The notes below the pieces were generated by a model. That model had not been told where the DNA came from and ran no database searches. It was given only the letters and a program-made list of their open reading frames with translations. The position numbers were made by a program, and so were the translations under genes. Positions 24,098 to 32,198 of a stretch of 64,000 nt of DNA are shown here, one piece after another; the stretch's first letter is position 1; each line of letters opens with the position of its first letter. Source of the DNA: Prauserella flavalba (lineage in GTDB: Bacteria > Actinomycetota > Actinomycetes > Mycobacteriales > Pseudonocardiaceae); NCBI RefSeq assembly GCF_003202235.1, contig NZ_MASU01000006.1:310001-374000 (forward strand), read 5' to 3'.

Positions 24098-24139
24098 GGC
24101 TACCGACCCTGGGCAGGGGGGACCCAGGGGTCAGTAGCC
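24098..24139. terminator. Bidirectional hairpin between convergent genes
   Basis: Arms around GGCTACCGACCCTGGG and CCCAGGGGTCAGTAGCC pair with one mismatch and one bulge. The element covers the stop codon of the XRE gene on the minus strand. Confidence 0.6.
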
Positions 24140-24604
24140 GGGCGGGAGGCCGGACAGCTTCCGGAGGCGGGCGATCAGGTCCTGGGTCTCCATACCGCAG
24201 AGCTCCGCCATGCGTTCGAGCGCGCTGAACTCCAGCTGGACGTCGTTGCCGCTCGCCTGCTCGAGCCTGCCGCGGGCCCACCGGCGCAGCGGAAGCAGCT
24301 CGGGCTGGTCGTCGGCGACCACCTTGGCCAGGTTCAGCCGCACCCGGCCCGGCTCGTCGCCGAAGACCCGCCGGTGCACGCGCTCGAGCAGGTTCTGCGG
24401 TAGCTCGTCCATGGCGAGGCAGATCTCGACCAGGCGCACCACCGAGCACTGCCGGGTGCCCAGCTCGTACGTCGCGAGTGTCTGCAGCGAGATCTCGCTC
24501 TGCAGGCGCTCGTTCAGTTCCTTGCGGGTCCATCCTCGTTGCTTGCGGAGCTTGCGTAGTTCCTCGCCAAGCACCCGCTGGTAGGCGTCCGCGTCGATCA
24601 GCAC
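24131..24604 (-). CDS. XRE-type helix-turn-helix regulator
   Basis: 157-aa protein (from GTG 24604) with a Cro/CI-type helix-turn-helix: LGEELRKLRKQRGWTRKEL then QTLATYELGTRQCSVVRLVEI, about residues 10-60. A C-terminal helical region follows, ending RLRKLSGLPPGY. Upstream in-frame codons could extend it by up to 47 residues, but LIDADAYQRVLGEEL looks like a natural N-terminus and GGACCTGGA precedes it. Probably a DNA-binding regulator; targets unknown. Confidence 0.75.
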   Translation of the reverse strand: MLIDADAYQRVLGEELRKLRKQRGWTRKELNERLQSEISLQTLATYELGTRQCSVVRLVEICLAMDELPQNLLERVHRRVFGDEPGRVRLNLAKVVADDQPELLPLRRWARGRLEQASGNDVQLEFSALERMAELCGMETQDLIARLRKLSGLPPGY

Positions 24605-24807
24605 TCCAGGTCCCCTGCCCGCACCGCGTGGGATGCCGTGCGCCGGCTCCGCCGACACAGTGCATGCGTTCTTCACGCGAGTGAAAGCCTCTGAGGTCCC
24701 TCGCCTTACGCGGCTTCCGTAGAAAACTTGACAAAAGCCCGCCAACTACCCCGAACGGGGTAACAAAAGGCGCCGAATGGGCTCACCCGGATTTCGCGGT
24801 CACAGAC

Positions 24808-26694: not shown

Positions 26695-28863
26695 CTACGT
26701 CGCGTAACCGCTCGTCGGCCGGGCGGCCCACACCGTAGCCAACGCCGCCGACACGGCCAGCAGCCCTGTGACGCCGTGCACAACGACGCCCAGCGCGAAC
26801 GTGCTCGGCCCCGCCGTCGCCGACAGCAGCGGCGGTACGCACGCCAGCGCCGTCAGCAGCCACGTCCTCGGCGCGTTGCTGACGCCGGTGCGGACGGTGT
26901 GCAGCAGGGACATCCCGAGCAGCAGGTGCACGAGACTCTGGATCGGATCGAGTGGCAACCCCGCCAGCGTGACCTGGCCGGCACCACTGAAGCTGCTCAG
27001 CGCGAACCCGAACACACCAAGGGTGGAGTACCCGATTCCGGCGACCGTAGCCGCGTGCGCCAACGCCCGATCGAGTCGTCCTGGCGCGGTCCGCCACGCG
27101 GGCAGCGGTGGCGGGCGGTAGCCGAGGTGGCGTTCGAACCACCAGAACACGAGCGCGGCCGGCCCGGTGAGCATCGCGACGGCCAGCAGTACCCGCAGGC
27201 TGCCCGCCGCGAGCCGCTCCGGCAGGTAGACCGCCGCGACGACCAGCAGCATGCCGGCGAGGAAGAGCAGATACAGGCTCATCGGCGCGCGGGAGGCGAA
27301 CCCCGCCGCGCGCAGTACCCGTGGACTGGCCGCCAGCCGGGCGAGCGGCGCTCGGAGCAGCCCGAGCAGGCTGAGCTGCACCAGTCCGAGCGCCAGCACG
27401 GGCAGCACGGGGCCGGTGAGCGCGGGCGACTCGGCTGACGAACCGAGCAGGGTCGCCGGCACGAGGCCCGACACCGCACCGGCCGTGAGCGCGCCCGCCC
27501 CGGCGAGCCCGGCGACCGCGAGCAGCCACGGTCGCGGCCTCGGCCGGCCGGCGTGGGCGAACGCCAGTTGCTGGGCGAGCAGCGCGAGCACCACCACGCT
27601 CAGGTTGCCGAGCACCGGCGAGTCCACCCGGTCGGCGAGCAGCTCCACCCCCGCGAGCGCGGCGACGAGGGCGAGTCCCGCCGGCACCGGCGCGCGGCGG
27701 TGCAGCGCCAGCAGTACCGGAGTCGCCGCCAGCGTCACCATGTAGACGCCGAGCAACCACAGCGGATGGAGCGCGATCCTGACCACCACGTCGCTGGTCC
27801 CCTCCGGTACCGCGAGCAGCTCCAGCGCCGTGGGCACGGCGAACGCCACCACGGCGAACACCAGCGTCAGGCGGAGCAGCCAGCTCGCCCGGTGCGCGAG
27901 GTACTCGCGGTAGCCGCCGCCGTGCCTGCGCACCGTGAGCCAGCCGGTGAGGTTGGAGTGCCCTGCCGCGAAGAAGAACACGAAGGCCAGCTGTGCGAGC
28001 CACGTGAACGGCCAGAGCCAGTCCGAGGGCGCACCGGCCCAGCGCGCGAGCGCGACCGAAGCCTCGCCGAGCACGAGTAGCCCGATGCTGCCGACGCCGA
28101 GCAGCGTCCAGCGTCCGCCGGGCACGGGTTCCGGCCTGGGCTCCGGTGCGTCGGTCCGGGGCCGGGTGCGCCGCGCGACGAGCCAGCCCCGCAGCCGGAA
28201 CGCGACGAGGAAGCCGATCACCGCGACGCCGGCGAGCATCGGCACGATCGGCTCGCCGACGGGAGGCCCCCAGCGCTGGTGCCACGAGTTGACGACGAGC
28301 CCCGCCGAGTACAGCGACGCGACGCCCTGGCACAGCTGCGGTGAGCCGCTCGGGTTGAGCGCGCACGTGGCGCGCATGTCCGCGGAGAGCCGGTCGTCGA
28401 GGGCCCTGCGCACCTCCGGGCCCAGCGGGTGGCCCTTCTTCTCGGCGTAGCGCAGCAGGTCGTAGCCGAGGTCGTGGGCGCGGCACGGGGTGCCGAAGTC
28501 CCAGCGGGTGTCGTCGTCGCCCCACGGCGTCGAGCACCCGCCGTCGACGTGCACGGCCCTGACCGTGCCGTCGCGTGCCGTCGCCTCGCCCGGCACCACG
28601 CCGGTGACCCGGGTGAAGTCGGCCGGCAGCGAGGCGAGCGCACCGGGGGTGGTGCCGGGGTCGAGCAGCGCGTCGATCGCGCGTTGCGCGGCCGCGACGT
28701 CACCCCGCGGCGGGCCCTGGTCGGGCGGTGCCTCCGAACGGGACGCCAGGAACCCGAACCCCGTCACCACCAGGACGAGCAGAACGACCCATGCCGACGT
28801 CCCGAGGAGGCCCCGCCCGCGTCTGGACGCGGGCGCTGCGGTCTCCTCGGCTGCTGCGGTCAT
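26695..28863 (-). CDS. Fusion protein: phospholipase A2-like domain + multi-span acyltransferase-like membrane domain
   Basis: 722 aa. An N-terminal signal/anchor helix (about 24-40) is followed by an extracytoplasmic phospholipase A2-like domain with the catalytic pair in CRAHDLGYD (His130-Asp131) and nearby Cys110, Cys127 and further Cys. From about residue 205 about 14 hydrophobic spans follow: a middle region resembling acyltransferase-3 membrane proteins (FFFAAGHSNLTGWLTVRRHGG, with a His in the early helices) and a C-terminal four-span unit resembling DUF4383. It is likely to remodel acyl lipids: deacylation outside, acyl transfer across the membrane (inference). ATG 28863 follows GGGGA. 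Confidence 0.75.
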   Translation of the reverse strand: MTAAAEETAAPASRRGRGLLGTSAWVVLLVLVVTGFGFLASRSEAPPDQGPPRGDVAAAQRAIDALLDPGTTPGALASLPADFTRVTGVVPGEATARDGTVRAVHVDGGCSTPWGDDDTRWDFGTPCRAHDLGYDLLRYAEKKGHPLGPEVRRALDDRLSADMRATCALNPSGSPQLCQGVASLYSAGLVVNSWHQRWGPPVGEPIVPMLAGVAVIGFLVAFRLRGWLVARRTRPRTDAPEPRPEPVPGGRWTLLGVGSIGLLVLGEASVALARWAGAPSDWLWPFTWLAQLAFVFFFAAGHSNLTGWLTVRRHGGGYREYLAHRASWLLRLTLVFAVVAFAVPTALELLAVPEGTSDVVVRIALHPLWLLGVYMVTLAATPVLLALHRRAPVPAGLALVAALAGVELLADRVDSPVLGNLSVVVLALLAQQLAFAHAGRPRPRPWLLAVAGLAGAGALTAGAVSGLVPATLLGSSAESPALTGPVLPVLALGLVQLSLLGLLRAPLARLAASPRVLRAAGFASRAPMSLYLLFLAGMLLVVAAVYLPERLAAGSLRVLLAVAMLTGPAALVFWWFERHLGYRPPPLPAWRTAPGRLDRALAHAATVAGIGYSTLGVFGFALSSFSGAGQVTLAGLPLDPIQSLVHLLLGMSLLHTVRTGVSNAPRTWLLTALACVPPLLSATAGPSTFALGVVVHGVTGLLAVSAALATVWAARPTSGYAT

Positions 28864-28937
28864 GGTTCCCCAGGGTGTCAGCGGCAAACGGGAGGCGGCA
28901 TCCGGGTAACCCCCGGATATCAGCAGTGCAGGTCAGC

Positions 28938-30353
28938 CTACCCGCCGGCGGCGTCGGCGAAGCGGACTTGGTTTCGCCCGTTCTCCTTCGCCTCGTACAC
29001 CGCGGCGTCGGCGGCCTGCATCAGTCCCTGCAGCGTGCTCGCGTGCCTCGGATACACGGCGACGCCGATGGAGGTCGTGCGGCCGGTGACCGTGGTCTGG
29101 GCCCCGCGCTTGTCGGTGGTGTCGATCTCCAGCGCGGCGATGGTGTTGCGGACGCGCTCCGCGGCGACCTCCGCCGCGGCCGCGTCGGCGTCGGGCAGCA
29201 GCACGAGGAACTCCTCGCCGCCGAACCGGCCGACGATGTCGGCGGGCCTCGTGACCTCGCCGAGGGCCTTCGCGATCGCTCCGAGCACGTCGTCGCCCGC
29301 CGGGTGCCCGAAGGTGTCGTTGATCCACTTGAAGTGGTCGAGGTCGATCATGAGCATGGCGAGGCTGCCGTCGGCGCGGCGCACGCGCGTGAGCGCCCGC
29401 TCCGCGGACTCCGACCAGCCGCGCATGTTGAGCAGCCCGGTCTTGGGATCGGTGACCACGTCGTCCTGCAGCTGGTCGAGCTCGGCGAGCCGGTTGAAGA
29501 ACACGGTCACCACGGCCATGATCGCGACCGACGGCGGCATGGTCACCACGAGCACGGCCGTGACGGCGCCGAGTCCCGTCGTGATGGCCTCGATGGTGTT
29601 GTCGGCCTTGCTGCCGAGGACGTTGCGCAGCGTGGGGTTCGGGTCGCTCAGCGCGAGGATGCCGCCGACGTAGAGCAGTTGGACGCCCTCGTACACGGCG
29701 GCGGCGACGAGCACGTAGCCGAACTCGCGCAGCGAGCCGAGCGCGGTGATGGTGTGCCAGTCGTGCGGCCCGAGCGAGCCGTAGACGAGCCCGGCGAGCG
29801 CGGCGGCCAGACTGTGCGAAATGGACGAGAACACGAAGTTGTGCGCCGGGCGGCGCGCGGTGAACCAGCGCTGAACGCGGATCAGCACCACGAGCAGGAC
29901 CGTGAGCGTGGTGGGCAGTACGAGCACCGCGGGGAACACCCACACGGCGATGAGGTCGATGAGGACGGTCTTCGTCCGGTTGCGCCTGCGTTCCTCCTGG
30001 CGCTGGGTGAGCTGGATGTGGACCGTCGCGCCCGCCGCGAGTATCGCGAACCGCAGCCAGTCCGTCCCGGTCGGCGAGTGGGCGCCCGCGAACGCGACGG
30101 CGAAACCGCCGATCGCCACGAGCTCCATGACGATCAGGAAGACGATGAAGCGTCTCGGCCGCTTCCACAGTGCCCAGTTCCGCGGGCGTAACCGGTGGCG
30201 CCGCCGAGCGTGCGCGGGCTCACCGTCGGCGCTCGCGCCGCCGGCCGGCGGCGCCGGACCGGTCACGGCGGCGGCGTCGCCCATGCCGGGCGCACCGTTG
30301 CGACCTGCGGCAGCGGGTGCTGGCGGTGGCCGGTCGTGAGGCGTGAGCGGCAC
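28938..30353 (-). CDS. Membrane diguanylate cyclase (GGDEF domain)
   Basis: 471 aa. A Pro/Ala-rich N-terminal tail, about six to eight membrane spans (residues 68-290), then a C-terminal GGDEF domain. The active site is GGEEF at 378-382, and an RxxD product-inhibition site (RPAD, 369-372) stands five residues before it, so it should be an active, feedback-inhibited c-di-GMP synthase. The start is a GTG with GGGGAGG 8 nt upstream. No EAL domain is fused. The micro-ORF array begins upstream on the other strand, so the two promoters are divergent in the same 190-bp gap. Confidence 0.88.
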   Translation of the reverse strand: MPLTPHDRPPPAPAAAGRNGAPGMGDAAAVTGPAPPAGGASADGEPAHARRRHRLRPRNWALWKRPRRFIVFLIVMELVAIGGFAVAFAGAHSPTGTDWLRFAILAAGATVHIQLTQRQEERRRNRTKTVLIDLIAVWVFPAVLVLPTTLTVLLVVLIRVQRWFTARRPAHNFVFSSISHSLAAALAGLVYGSLGPHDWHTITALGSLREFGYVLVAAAVYEGVQLLYVGGILALSDPNPTLRNVLGSKADNTIEAITTGLGAVTAVLVVTMPPSVAIMAVVTVFFNRLAELDQLQDDVVTDPKTGLLNMRGWSESAERALTRVRRADGSLAMLMIDLDHFKWINDTFGHPAGDDVLGAIAKALGEVTRPADIVGRFGGEEFLVLLPDADAAAAEVAAERVRNTIAALEIDTTDKRGAQTTVTGRTTSIGVAVYPRHASTLQGLMQAADAAVYEAKENGRNQVRFADAAGG

Positions 30354-30541
30354 TCGCCAAACCTCCCCAAGGTGTGCGTTCCGGCGGTTAAGTACCCTCT
30401 GCGAAGTCCGCGAGAGAACGGGGCGCTCTCCACAGCAGGTATCATCTCACCGCGCCAGAACTGCCGTGTAGGCGAGGACGCCGGCATGTAGTCTCGGGGC
30501 GCCCCGTCTTCGGCTCAAAGGGCGATCGGAGGTGTTCTCCC
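30354..30541 (+). promoter_or_regulatory. Divergent leader region upstream of the micro-ORF array
   Basis: 188 bp between the diguanylate cyclase start and micro-ORF 1. It contains a possible -10 hexamer TATCAT (30440-30445) without a clear -35, and a perfect palindrome CGGGGCGCCCCG (30495-30506) 36 nt before the first micro-ORF start. No longer ORF is supported here. Confidence 0.4.
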
Positions 30542-30562
30542 TTGCCTGGCCGTGACTTCTGA
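30542..30562 (+). CDS. Micro-ORF 1: hexapeptide MPGRDF
   Basis: TTG start, six codons, TGA. GGAGG at 30528-30532 gives a 9-nt spacer. First of six tandem copies of the pattern M-x-G-R-D-F-stop; it uses GGC CGT GAC TTC for the shared four residues. No in-frame ATG or GTG lies close upstream, so the short reading is the natural one. Confidence 0.7.
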   Translation: MPGRDF

Positions 30563-30612
30563 TCTAGAACAAACACATGTTGGTTGATTGCGCTCTCAAT
30601 GGGAGGTGTCCC

Positions 30613-30633
30613 GTGGCTGGCCGCGATTTCTGA
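30613..30633 (+). CDS. Micro-ORF 2: hexapeptide MAGRDF
   Basis: GTG start with GGGAGG at 30601-30606 (6-nt spacer). Shared residues coded GGC CGC GAT TTC, differing from copy 1 only at third bases. An in-frame ATG at 30577 would give an 18-residue form, but it has no ribosome site and no counterpart in the other copies. Confidence 0.75.
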   Translation: MAGRDF

Positions 30634-30685
30634 TCCTGTGCGTTGGTGAACTCTGTGAGCAGACGAAGTAAAGGAGGAGTTTCCG

Positions 30686-30706
30686 GTGACCGGTCGTGAT
30701 TTCTGA
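30686..30706 (+). CDS. Micro-ORF 3: hexapeptide MTGRDF
   Basis: GTG start with AAGGAGGA at 30671-30678, GGAGG ending 8 nt before the start. Shared residues coded GGT CGT GAT TTC, TGA stop. An in-frame stop at 30656-30658 and the lack of any start codon after it rule out an upstream extension. Confidence 0.75.
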   Translation: MTGRDF

Positions 30707-30755
30707 GACACGTGGCGTTCGGGAAAATCGTTAGCGGATGTGAAGGAGGCTGGCT

Positions 30756-30776
30756 GTGGCCGGGCGTGACTTCTGA
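30756..30776 (+). CDS. Micro-ORF 4: hexapeptide MAGRDF
   Basis: GTG start with AAGGAGG at 30743-30749 (6-nt spacer). Shared residues coded GGG CGT GAC TTC, TGA stop. A TGA in frame at 30741-30743 limits the ORF to the hexapeptide. Confidence 0.75.
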   Translation: MAGRDF

Positions 30777-30832
30777 GCAAGGGCAGTCGGTAGTGGAGAG
30801 TCGAGCCGGGATCGCCGGGGAGGTGTGTGCAA

Positions 30833-30853
30833 GTGCGTGGCCGTGATTTCTGA
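30833..30853 (+). CDS. Micro-ORF 5: hexapeptide MRGRDF
   Basis: GTG start, GGAGG at 30819-30823 (9-nt spacer). Shared residues coded GGC CGT GAT TTC. An earlier in-frame GTG at 30827 would add two residues but would lie only 3 nt from the ribosome site. Confidence 0.7.
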   Translation: MRGRDF

Positions 30854-30921
30854 ACACTCGTAGTCATTATGAGCACTCACAGTGACAATTTTTCTTAATC
30901 GCGTTCGAGGAGGAGCCCCCG

Positions 30922-30942
30922 ATGGCCGGCCGTGACTTCTGA
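30922..30942 (+). CDS. Micro-ORF 6: hexapeptide MAGRDF
   Basis: The only copy with an ATG start, and GGAGG at 30909-30913 (8-nt spacer). Shared residues coded GGC CGT GAC TTC, TGA. It is the last copy; 47 nt later the convergent MFS gene ends. A TGA in frame at 30883-30885 excludes an extension. Confidence 0.8.
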   Translation: MAGRDF

Positions 30943-30989: not shown

Positions 30990-32198
30990 CTATCCGGCGT
31001 AGCTACGGACGCGCGCCCACGAAAGCGCGACCGGCACGGTGAAAACAACTCCCAGTACGCCGGCAAGTGCGATAGCGGTGGTCGCGGAGCCAACCCATTC
31101 CGCGAGTACGCCGCCCATCGCCACACCAAGGCCCTGTGCTACCCGCAGCCCGGTGCGGTAGAGCCCTCCCGCTCCTCCGCGTAGTTCGTTGGGAACCCAC
31201 GTGATGAACGTGGCGCCGACGGTGATGATGTAGGCACCCGCCGCGCCCGCGAGTGCCAGCAGGACCAGTGCGAGCACCAGTCCTGGCTCGAGGGCGAACA
31301 CGACGAGCACGCCCGCCGCGGCGATCGCGAGCACGCCGACGTACCGTCGCCGGTTCTCCGCGGAGACGAAGCGCGACAGCACGAACGCGCCCAGGATGAA
31401 CCCGACGGGGTCGGCCGCGAGCAGCCAGCCGACCGCCTGCTCGCCCGCGCCGATCTGGTGGGCCAATGGCGCGGCGAGACCTTCGGGCACGACGGCGAGC
31501 CCGACGAGCCACGAGAACGCGAGCAGCACCCGCAGCCTGCGCTGCCCGAACACCCACTGGGCCGCGCCGAACCACGGACCGTCCGGATCGCCTGCCGGGG
31601 GCCGCGCGCGTACCTGCCATCGCACGACGGCCGCCGCGACCGCGAACGTGACCGCGTCGATCGCGAGCGCCCACGACGGGCCGAGCGCCGTCACGAGCAC
31701 GCCACCGGCGGCGAGGCCGGCGAGCATCGCGATGTTGGTGGTGATGCCGCGCAGATCCTGGCTGCGCAGATAGACCTCGTCGTCGTCGAAGATCTCCCTG
31801 GTGAGCGCGTTCTGCGCGGCGTTGACCGGTGCGCCGGCCAGCCGCACGCCCACGACGAGCACGCAGAGCAGGGCGAGCGGGGTGCCGGGGATGGCCATGG
31901 CGCCCACGAGCACGGCTTGGATCAGTGCGCACGTGACCAGCACGGTCCGGCGGGGGAACCGGTCGGCGAGCTGGGAAAGCCCGAGCCCGCCCGCGAGCGC
32001 GGGGAGGAACGTGAGGGCGTAGACCACCGCGGCCCACAGTGCGGAGCCGGTGCGGCCGTAGACCACGATGGCGAGCGCGACCGTGGTGAGGTGGTCCCCG
32101 GCCACCGACTGTGCCTCGGCGAGCCACAGCGCGCGAAACTCCGGGTTGCGGATCGCGACGTTCATCCGTGGCGCCGTGCTGGTACCCACCCTTGTCAC
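30990..32198 (-). CDS. MFS transporter (EntS-like, MFS_3 type exporter)
   Basis: About 400-aa membrane transporter with 12 predicted spans. It starts NPEFRALWLAEAQSVAGDHL, typical of the MFS_3/EntS-like exporter group, and carries the loop motif QLADRFPRRTVL near residue 65. GTG 32198 or ATG 32165 may be the start; neither has a strong ribosome site, and a short or leaderless transcript is possible. It is convergent with the six-copy micro-ORF array, 47 nt away. Export of a small molecule or short peptide is plausible but unproven. Confidence 0.82.
   Translation of the reverse strand: MTRVGTSTAPRMNVAIRNPEFRALWLAEAQSVAGDHLTTVALAIVVYGRTGSALWAAVVYALTFLPALAGGLGLSQLADRFPRRTVLVTCALIQAVLVGAMAIPGTPLALLCVLVVGVRLAGAPVNAAQNALTREIFDDDEVYLRSQDLRGITTNIAMLAGLAAGGVLVTALGPSWALAIDAVTFAVAAAVVRWQVRARPPAGDPDGPWFGAAQWVFGQRRLRVLLAFSWLVGLAVVPEGLAAPLAHQIGAGEQAVGWLLAADPVGFILGAFVLSRFVSAENRRRYVGVLAIAAAGVLVVFALEPGLVLALVLLALAGAAGAYIITVGATFITWVPNELRGGAGGLYRTGLRVAQGLGVAMGGVLAEWVGSATTAIALAGVLGVVFTVPVALSWARVRSYAG

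Follow-up and report, generated by a model that had tools for sequence, protein, structure and literature searches.

The window analysed here is a stretch of 64,000 nucleotides (nt) from Prauserella flavalba (RefSeq assembly GCF_003202235.1, contig NZ_MASU01000006.1, positions 310,001 to 374,000 of the forward strand). The element under study is an array of six micro-open reading frames (micro-ORFs), which stands alone on the plus strand between a minus-strand GGDEF protein and a minus-strand transporter of the major facilitator superfamily (MFS). A first-pass annotation made from the sequence alone had described six plus-strand units, each with a GGAGG site 6-9 nt before its start, and all positions were confirmed exactly. 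The array, the two flanking genes and the region upstream are laid out as follows (positions in the window).

30542 to 30562, plus strand: micro-ORF 1, TTG start, MPGRDF, GGAGG at 30528-30532, with an orthologue in all 7 aligned genomes.
30613 to 30633, plus strand: micro-ORF 2, GTG start, MAGRDF, GGAGG at 30602-30606, included in the alignment of 7 genomes.
30686 to 30706, plus strand: micro-ORF 3, GTG start, MTGRDF, GGAGG at 30673-30677, absent in genomes G041 and G014 according to the alignment.
30756 to 30776, plus strand: micro-ORF 4, GTG start, MAGRDF, GGAGG at 30745-30749, included in the alignment of 7 genomes.
30833 to 30853, plus strand: micro-ORF 5, GTG start, MRGRDF, GGAGG at 30819-30823, included in the alignment of 7 genomes.
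30922 to 30942, plus strand: micro-ORF 6, ATG start, MAGRDF, GGAGG at 30909-30913, included in the alignment of 7 genomes.
28938 to 30353, minus strand: membrane diguanylate cyclase (DGC), divergent from the array, 471 aa if the longest ORF is taken, Pfam PF00990 (E 1.4e-43).
29454 to 30215, minus strand: sensor domain of the cyclase, residues 47-300 of the AlphaFold model, proposed peptide receptor.
30990 to 32198, minus strand: MFS transporter, 402 aa, proposed exporter, convergent with the array, Pfam MFS_1 (E 1.1e-24).
30438 to 30484, plus strand: conserved block, candidate promoter, GGTATCATCTCACCGCGCC..., about 60-100 nt upstream of unit 1, delimited by the 7-genome alignment.

The gaps between GGAGG and start measure 9, 6, 8, 6, 9 and 8 nt for units 1 to 6, and the encoded peptides read (f)M-P/A/T/A/R/A-G-R-D-F, with no leader or signal sequence. 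The sixth codon is TTC in all six units, which fit DTG-NNN-GGN-CGN-GAY-TTC-TGA. The pattern DTG-NNN-GGN-CGN-GAY-TTY-TGA was matched six times in the window and not once in 100 dinucleotide shuffles, and over the whole 8.09-Mb assembly the six array units were its sole matches. A chance origin of the array was ruled out by the shuffles together with the tandem-pair controls given below. The conserved upstream block, whose role as a candidate promoter is suggested by its conservation in the 7-genome alignment, contains TATCAT at 30440-30445 as a possible -10 element of the array; a sigma-70 scan found no promoter-like site. The terminator search gave one terminator-like match, overlapping unit 2, and the Rfam search over the window returned a tRNA only. 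A structured RNA in the array was rejected because the array RNA is less structured than its shuffles (z +1.95; 99 of 100 shuffles folded at least as well).

The strict GRDF pattern was found in 12 of 297 genomes of the window's family (taken to be Pseudonocardiaceae), the window's genome included. Six copies each were present in Prauserella cavernicola, P. endophytica, P. shujinwangii and Qaidamihabitans albus, three in genome G213, two in each of four Saccharomonospora and one in each of G044 and G077. When GGAGG plus the strict pattern was searched in a collection of 84,980 species, 17 stretches were obtained, eight of which held more than one copy and belonged without exception to Saccharomonospora, Prauserella or Qaidamihabitans; nine single matches in scattered taxa were taken as chance by a rough estimate. 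Such a search had been proposed in the first-pass annotation, together with a survey of the flanking genes. The flanks were found to hold the DGC and the MFS transporter, two partners which that annotation had missed and which are linked to arrays in relatives. A looser pattern (codon 3 RRN) was present in 91 of 294 family genomes and 14 of 46 genera, stray matches included.

A DGC homologue at E 1e-20 or better was detected in 214 of 294 family genomes. The loci compared were the 12 found by the GRDF pattern and 80 chosen by DGC, the latter comprising every further genome among the matches listed down to E 1.2e-40, with none weaker and minus G107 and G124; 90 of these 92 loci hold units. Relatives chosen by the DGC gene alone show micro-ORFs independently of the peptide pattern, since 78 of the 80 loci carry them divergent from the DGC, with 1-11 units each. 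From the 92 loci, 272 units were picked by a motif filter (ending in R-[DEA]-x, or in GCDF, GRNF or DRDG). Their C-termini were GRDF, DRDF, NRDF, SRDF, GRDY, DRAW, DRDW, ERDW, DREA, DREY, DRDL, DRDM and a few rarer forms. They start with GTG (167), ATG (76) or TTG (29), stop with TGA in 268 of 272 cases and are mostly spaced at 65-80 nt.

The peptide is nearly uniform inside a locus and differs between lineages (for example xGRDF, xDRDF, xNRDF, xSRDF or xDREA). Among the motif-selected units, the last four residues were shared by 394 of 404 within-locus pairs and 487 of 2850 between-locus pairs. When the motif filter was dropped, 68 DGC-chosen loci gave 243 micro-ORFs, of which 208 had the commonest C-terminus of their locus, and 255 of 356 within-locus pairs shared the last four residues. 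On a 51-genome tree, these residues change 14 times by parsimony, as compared to a mean of 29.5 and a minimum of 25 for shuffled labels. Linkers (25 nt) were 54% identical between orthologues and 25% identical between units of one genome. The latter value is the chance level, as expected from the earlier description of the linkers as unrelated, and recent gene conversion is therefore unlikely to underlie the within-locus uniformity in Prauserella. Spacing of exactly 73 or 78 nt in G009 and G430 suggests recent amplification there.

Turnover of the peptide could be followed in the alignment of G041 and G014 to the window, which contains counterparts of units 1, 2, 4, 5 and 6. Units 2, 4, 5 and 6, paired with those of the window through their position and flanking sequence, all have D where the window has G, and unit 1 keeps G and has lost R (SGCDF) or D (SGRNF) (loci L092 and L094), as if an old code were being discarded. 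The 7-genome alignment revealed no extra degenerate unit in the pattern-found genomes. In Saccharomonospora saliphila (L015/L059), an apparent decayed copy, MAGLDFS without a stop, lies between two intact units.

Across the five genomes with six-unit arrays, third bases differed 22, 14 and 12 times in codons 3, 4 and 5, and none of the 60 pairs compared at each of these codons differed in amino acid, a count that holds partly by construction because four of these genomes were found with the strict GRDF pattern itself; read with that limit, it bears out the earlier statement that differences in the shared codons are third-base synonymous. Codons 6 and 7 were invariant, and codon 2 was freer (26 of 60 differences).

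Arrays are also found in a family, f21 (probably Micromonosporaceae), that is placed in a different order by the kinship label of the collection. The f21 DGCs are 28-37% identical over the sensor query and again have divergent arrays, with the units MRDNTWT, MRDTTWS, MRGNSWD, MRANSWD, MRDNNWN and relatives; G430 carries 13 copies of MRDTTWS, one of them ending in R. Six f21 genomes (G420, G430, G450, G470, G488 and G531) possess two sensor-DGCs each, one with an MRGNSWD array and the other with an MRDxxWx array. An MFS gene, 38-44% identical to that of the window, follows the array in 18 of 19 f21 loci fetched with their surroundings; the rest of the neighbourhood is not the same at the two kinds of site. 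In 12 of 12 f21 genomes, the window MFS finds its best genome-wide match next to an array; none of ten weaker MFS homologues (L320-L329) adjoins an array. At G409:C110:71445-72650, the MFS match by an f21 array is in two pieces that fall in different stretches, as if the gene were interrupted.

Paralogues within one genome likewise carry peptides of their own. The window's genome has a second sensor-DGC (G000:C24:24301-25050; L231, L269) with one divergent unit, MRNKDL, and no MFS match in the 14 kb fetched. G210, with three DGCs, carries MRSRDW/MSRDW eleven times, MRGDREL three times and MRNREY twice. The paralogues of G009 are accompanied by ten copies of MSSRDF (M or V start), two of MRxDRDM and two of xRNRDN, and G077 has VTGRDF once at the main site and MRDNNWT six times in a second DGC-array-MFS cassette. 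Genus g8, which belongs to the window's family, has one M[RCS]NRDF unit at another chromosomal site, flanked by a more distant pair of DGC and MFS genes (six loci viewed, DGC and MFS both matched). MSNRDF followed by a stop also occurs at a second site in four g8 genomes (L174, L175, L187 and L191). In two of them, L174 and L187, the ATG of this copy shares bases (ATGA) with the stop codon of a 71-aa ORF, and a response-regulator-like ORF precedes both; this copy is either a translationally coupled stray unit or a coincidence.

At six DGC loci, the repeated peptide is contained in longer ORFs with two to six cores, which replace the separate micro-ORFs or, at L202, are themselves repeated. L317 holds six STDW(T) cores, L240 six PTDW cores, L316 RPNEWA twice, L235 GRPSEWR twice and L247 RENTW twice, and L202 has four repeated ORFs with two RDTNW cores each. 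The screen for fused ORFs, which was written after L316 and L317 had been seen, gave five weak hits when applied to 259,466 strand-bases of other DNA, and all five were short motifs with one repetition. These fused ORFs are the strongest single argument for the peptide as the product.

As a control, sensor-DGC 5' regions were screened for tandem pairs with the same C-terminus. Among 149 regions (148 distinct, with G029:C4 counted twice), 102 had such a pair on the divergent strand and none on the opposite strand; without the 12 pattern-found loci, the count was 92 of 137. When the long fetched loci (1.41 million strand-bases) were screened, every pair listed belonged to an array. By reading, the remaining 47 regions comprised 30 with a single, diverged or fused unit and 17 with none. 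A sensor profile search across the class matched 74 of 393 genomes; among ten loci viewed outside the two families, L351 has MRHTSWS twice, and no array was seen at L350, L352 and seven f18 loci (L353-L359).

Repeats of DNA or RNA, such as protein-binding sites or an antisense or sponge RNA, that are open in frame by accident would account for the regular spacing, mostly 65-80 nt, and for the GGAGG before every window unit. Such an element is nevertheless hardly credible. Orthologues differ in codons 3-5 at third bases only (subject to the limit noted above for genomes found by the pattern), amino-acid changes are common to nearly all units of a locus, and distant homologues keep peptide repeats in the same place with other sequences. 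Conservation irrespective of reading frame, which the first-pass annotation had considered as the opposing case, is contradicted by the fused ORFs. The different peptides of paralogues and the fused multi-core ORFs argue that the peptide product matters rather than the DNA or RNA, and the view that the peptide is under selection, already taken in the first-pass annotation, is strongly supported. The sequences show gene-like anatomy, selection on the peptide and uniformity within loci with turnover between lineages.

A convergent MFS homologue lies beyond 78 of the 90 arrays (72 of 78 DGC-chosen and 6 of 12 pattern-found). In the 12 other loci, a short-chain dehydrogenase (SDR) gene lies 236-452 nt downstream on the strand of the array. 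The arrangement bears on whether the units might be cis-acting translated leaders or minigenes that control a neighbour through ribosome stalling, peptidyl-tRNA drop-off or RNA stability, for which strong ribosome sites, short ORFs and biased codons would be suitable. A unit is placed about 200 nt upstream of a same-strand MFS in genus g27, and the same-strand SDR in the 12 loci without MFS makes a leader role possible there. Such control is nonetheless quite improbable, given that 78 of 90 loci, among them that of the window, have a convergent gene as the next one recognised, that the array RNA is less structured than its shuffles, and that fused ORFs start once and do not repeat the stop codon. 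Among the roles listed in the first-pass annotation, dose-setting leaders are accordingly disfavoured because of the convergent MFS and the fused forms without separate starts, subject to the 12 SDR loci; an exported or signalling peptide is favoured and a modified-peptide precursor is possible. The g27 unit, MRNRDF, stands about 200 nt upstream of the MFS in L182 and 120 nt in L183.

The cyclase consists of an N-terminal multi-helix membrane sensor followed by a GGDEF domain. It carries a GG[DE]EF motif (GGEEF, with RxxD five residues before, read by eye) and a GGDEF fold, and cyclase activity is predicted. AlphaFold modelling gave a mean pLDDT of 88.4 for the whole DGC and 92.4 for the sensor alone; the modelled catalytic half matches solved GGDEF domains, and the modelled sensor is a bundle of about eight helices. 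For the sensor, no match was found in Pfam and no sequence match in the PDB. Foldseek returned no match at E 0.001 and a weak likeness to S-components of energy-coupling factor (ECF) transporters (e.g. ThiT; best E 0.12, probability 0.98). ECF S-components bind small ligands.

The array probably encodes a self- or quorum-sensing peptide that is exported by the MFS transporter, read by the membrane domain of the DGC and used to set the level of cyclic di-GMP (c-di-GMP), although the case falls well short of certainty. The genomes document the DGC-peptide-MFS trio at several chromosomal sites and in two orders, together with the fused multi-core ORFs; that the units are translated, that the peptide is exported and directly sensed, and that c-di-GMP responds is what we infer. 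A short plus-strand RNA would be transcribed from the divergent region and translated at each micro-ORF to give one leaderless peptide per unit. The formyl group may be removed from Met, and so may Met itself where residue 2 is small, in keeping with the usual rule. The common C-terminal tetrapeptide (here GRDF) would be the active epitope, and copy number (1 to 13) would set the dose. The neighbouring MFS transporter would export the peptide, and its detection by the sensor domain of the divergent DGC would change c-di-GMP, so that a cell would respond to the peptide of its own kind, each lineage and paralogue having its own code.

Trees of both partner proteins (midpoint-rooted, read by eye) were compared with the peptides. 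The DGC tree, built from 33 of 71 orthologues plus all 57 and 8 others, separates a group with W-containing peptides from an RD-type group across family borders. In six genomes with both kinds of DGC (G077, G206, G276, G181, G009 and G157), the peptide class fits the DGC group; L233 (RDKIW) is placed firmly in neither group, and L243 (RGRTT) is a poor fit to both classes. The same division is seen in the MFS tree (25 of 79 plus 34), where the 22 W-type MFS proteins all fall in one clade that, at its smallest, has L315 as its sole further member. That the peptide class tracks both trees, that each paralogue has a private peptide and that the units lack a leader or signal sequence would also suit a peptide that stays in the cell and acts as a tiny regulatory subunit bound to the cytoplasmic side of the DGC (or MFS), with the MFS carrying other cargo. 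This intracellular role is considered unlikely. A secreted signal would better explain the linked transporter and a copy number that reaches 13 at one locus; in addition, both residue 2 and the length of the peptide are variable, and fused ORFs would need processing.

The choice of the sensor as receptor was assessed by branch tests in the 51 genomes with all three proteins, out of 71 with DGC and peptide. The 14 branches on which the peptide changes carry 37% of the total branch length of the sensor, 24% of that of the GGDEF domain, 24% of that of the MFS and 15% of that of the SDR control. In permutations matched for branch length, and without correction for the 18 ratios tried, the sensor was enriched 2.57x over SDR (3 of 2000 permutations as high), 1.57x over GGDEF (36) and 1.56x over MFS (12), and the MFS was enriched over SDR too (13 of 2000). 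For position 3 alone, the sensor reached 41 of 2000 over SDR, and 264 over GGDEF and 488 over MFS, neither significant; without the long branch G008, the values were 63, 17 and 0 of 2000 for GGDEF, MFS and SDR. The tests thus give modest support to the sensor as receptor.

These last qualifications, from the uncorrected ratios to the long branch, weigh against the proposed signalling cassette, and further points have to be set beside them. Units are missing from 17 of the 149 sensor-DGC 5' regions and from 7 of 7 more distant f18 sensors, and 12 of 90 arrays lack an adjacent MFS. Five f21 genomes possess a third MFS homologue of similar score (L310-L314) that has no array and no DGC beside it. 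The genomes with a DGC match do not include the Saccharomonospora relatives G195 and G215 (83% and 82% complete), the DGC of G172 is on another contig, and in two g27 genomes a unit stands next to an MFS and no DGC was seen up to about 4 kb away. Finally, CGT is far commoner among the Arg codons of the units (165 of 272, with 101 CGC and 4 CGG; 5 of 6 window units) than in eight neighbouring window genes (9 of 258). Because of this excess, some RNA-level constraint near the start is likely in addition to selection on the peptide. GAT, too, occurs in 3 of 6 window units, as compared to 7 of 177 Asp codons in the eight neighbouring genes; the preference for CGT, TGA and GAT perhaps keeps the start region unstructured.

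The remaining surroundings of the array were compared by a Pfam run on ten proteins of the window and, at other loci, by clustering; genes at most loci were called with our own GC-frame script, and their starts are approximate. The window MFS scored far below the cut-offs of both the TIGR00900 and the EntS models. Two further genes on the DGC side are as follows.

26695 to 28887, minus strand: membrane protein of 730 aa, weakly matched to phospholipase A2 (PF09056).
24131 to 24745, minus strand: XRE-type helix-turn-helix (HTH) regulator, fourth gene away from the array, in a syntenic neighbourhood.

The 730-aa protein adjoins the DGC in 7 of 12 loci compared. Further out, the phospholipase-A2-like membrane protein, a LytR/CpsA protein and the HTH protein lie on the DGC side, and an SDR and an AMP-ligase on the MFS side. 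The HTH regulator has no match at f21 loci and only weak matches in the PDB (best E 0.0035), and the idea that it is kin to BldD was not borne out by that search. Clustering of loci found no gene besides DGC and MFS that is common to different kinds of site.

The gene content also bears on a small modified natural product, namely a ribosomally synthesised and post-translationally modified peptide (RiPP), a toxin or a metallophore-like compound, for which the MFS would be the export or immunity pump and the DGC the regulator. Although a micro-gene beside an MFS pump recalls microcin C and multi-core precursors are common in RiPPs, a precursor of this type is improbable, considering that Pfam on ten window proteins and clustering of the other loci found no gene outside the DGC-MFS pair that different kinds of site share, and that private peptides of DGC paralogues in one genome would be unexpected for a product pathway.

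If the signalling proposal holds, we judge the units to be among the smallest complete signal genes known, with genes of 18-24 nt kept under selection across two orders. Gene callers usually do not report genes of this size. c-di-GMP controls development and antibiotic production in related filamentous bacteria, and synthetic hexapeptides could be simple tools for these antibiotic producers if the proposal is true. It would also place a peptide quorum code in a phylum whose signals are, in the section of the source drawn on, typically small molecules made by enzymes (PMC10075063), and it would provide a direct receptor linking a ribosomal peptide to c-di-GMP, of which none is named in the parts used of a 2022 review (PMC8846402). 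It is about an even call whether the arrays represent a class of Actinomycete peptide pheromones, leaderless in tandem or fused form, exported by MFS transporters, read directly by DGCs and bearing private codes that change together. A full-text search, which left most subscription journals and preprints uncovered, found neither this array nor a DGC that senses a peptide described in these bacteria, in agreement with the earlier remark that no described system of this layout was known.

Microcin C is made from mccA, a gene of 7 codons, and has an MFS exporter. Its tiny gene for a peptide beside an MFS pump is a shared trait, whereas the copies here are in tandem and linked to a DGC; no MccB/ThiF-type enzyme was found among ten window neighbours by Pfam, other loci having been compared by clustering only. 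Biarylitides derive from a pentapeptide precursor of 5 codons accompanied by a cytochrome P450 (PMC12951456, sections used). Precursors as short as 5 codons are common to both systems, but the window peptide lacks the Tyr, His and Trp residues of the cross-link, and no P450 was found among the ten neighbours scanned with Pfam; the earlier remark that neither an MccB- nor a P450-type gene lies beside the array thus holds for these ten.

Ligand-sensing membrane DGCs, such as those that detect autoinducer-2 through dCACHE domains (PMC8846402, in the parts used), likewise convert an extracellular signal into c-di-GMP. The passages drawn on name no ribosomal peptide as a ligand, and the sensor of the window is without a Pfam match and without a sequence match in the PDB. 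Quorum sensing of the RRNPP type, as far as the cited section describes it, also pairs an adjacent peptide gene with a receptor and uses a short mature peptide, but with propeptides and intracellular receptors (PMC10075063). No TPR family was among the Pfam matches of the ten neighbouring proteins, and units of 5-7 codons leave no room for an export leader.

The closest likeness is to the leaderless communication peptides (LCPs) of Firmicutes, which the sections used of PMC10518010 describe as having about 8 residues, no leader and their own ribosome site; in the characterised cases, the peptide is encoded divergently from its receptor gene, and codes differ in related species. A leaderless micro-ORF of about 6-10 aa with a Shine-Dalgarno site is present here as well. 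LCPs mostly have 8-10 hydrophobic residues and a cytosolic RopB-type receptor (same source and sections), whereas the peptides described here have 5-8 mostly polar residues, often with an acidic-aromatic end, and are found in tandem copies with a linked MFS in Actinomycetes. No cytosolic RopB-clan (Rgg-like) receptor lies beside the array, where the neighbour is a membrane GGDEF protein, and the proposed receptor is that membrane DGC. The array system would work in the manner of the LCPs without being a member of their group.

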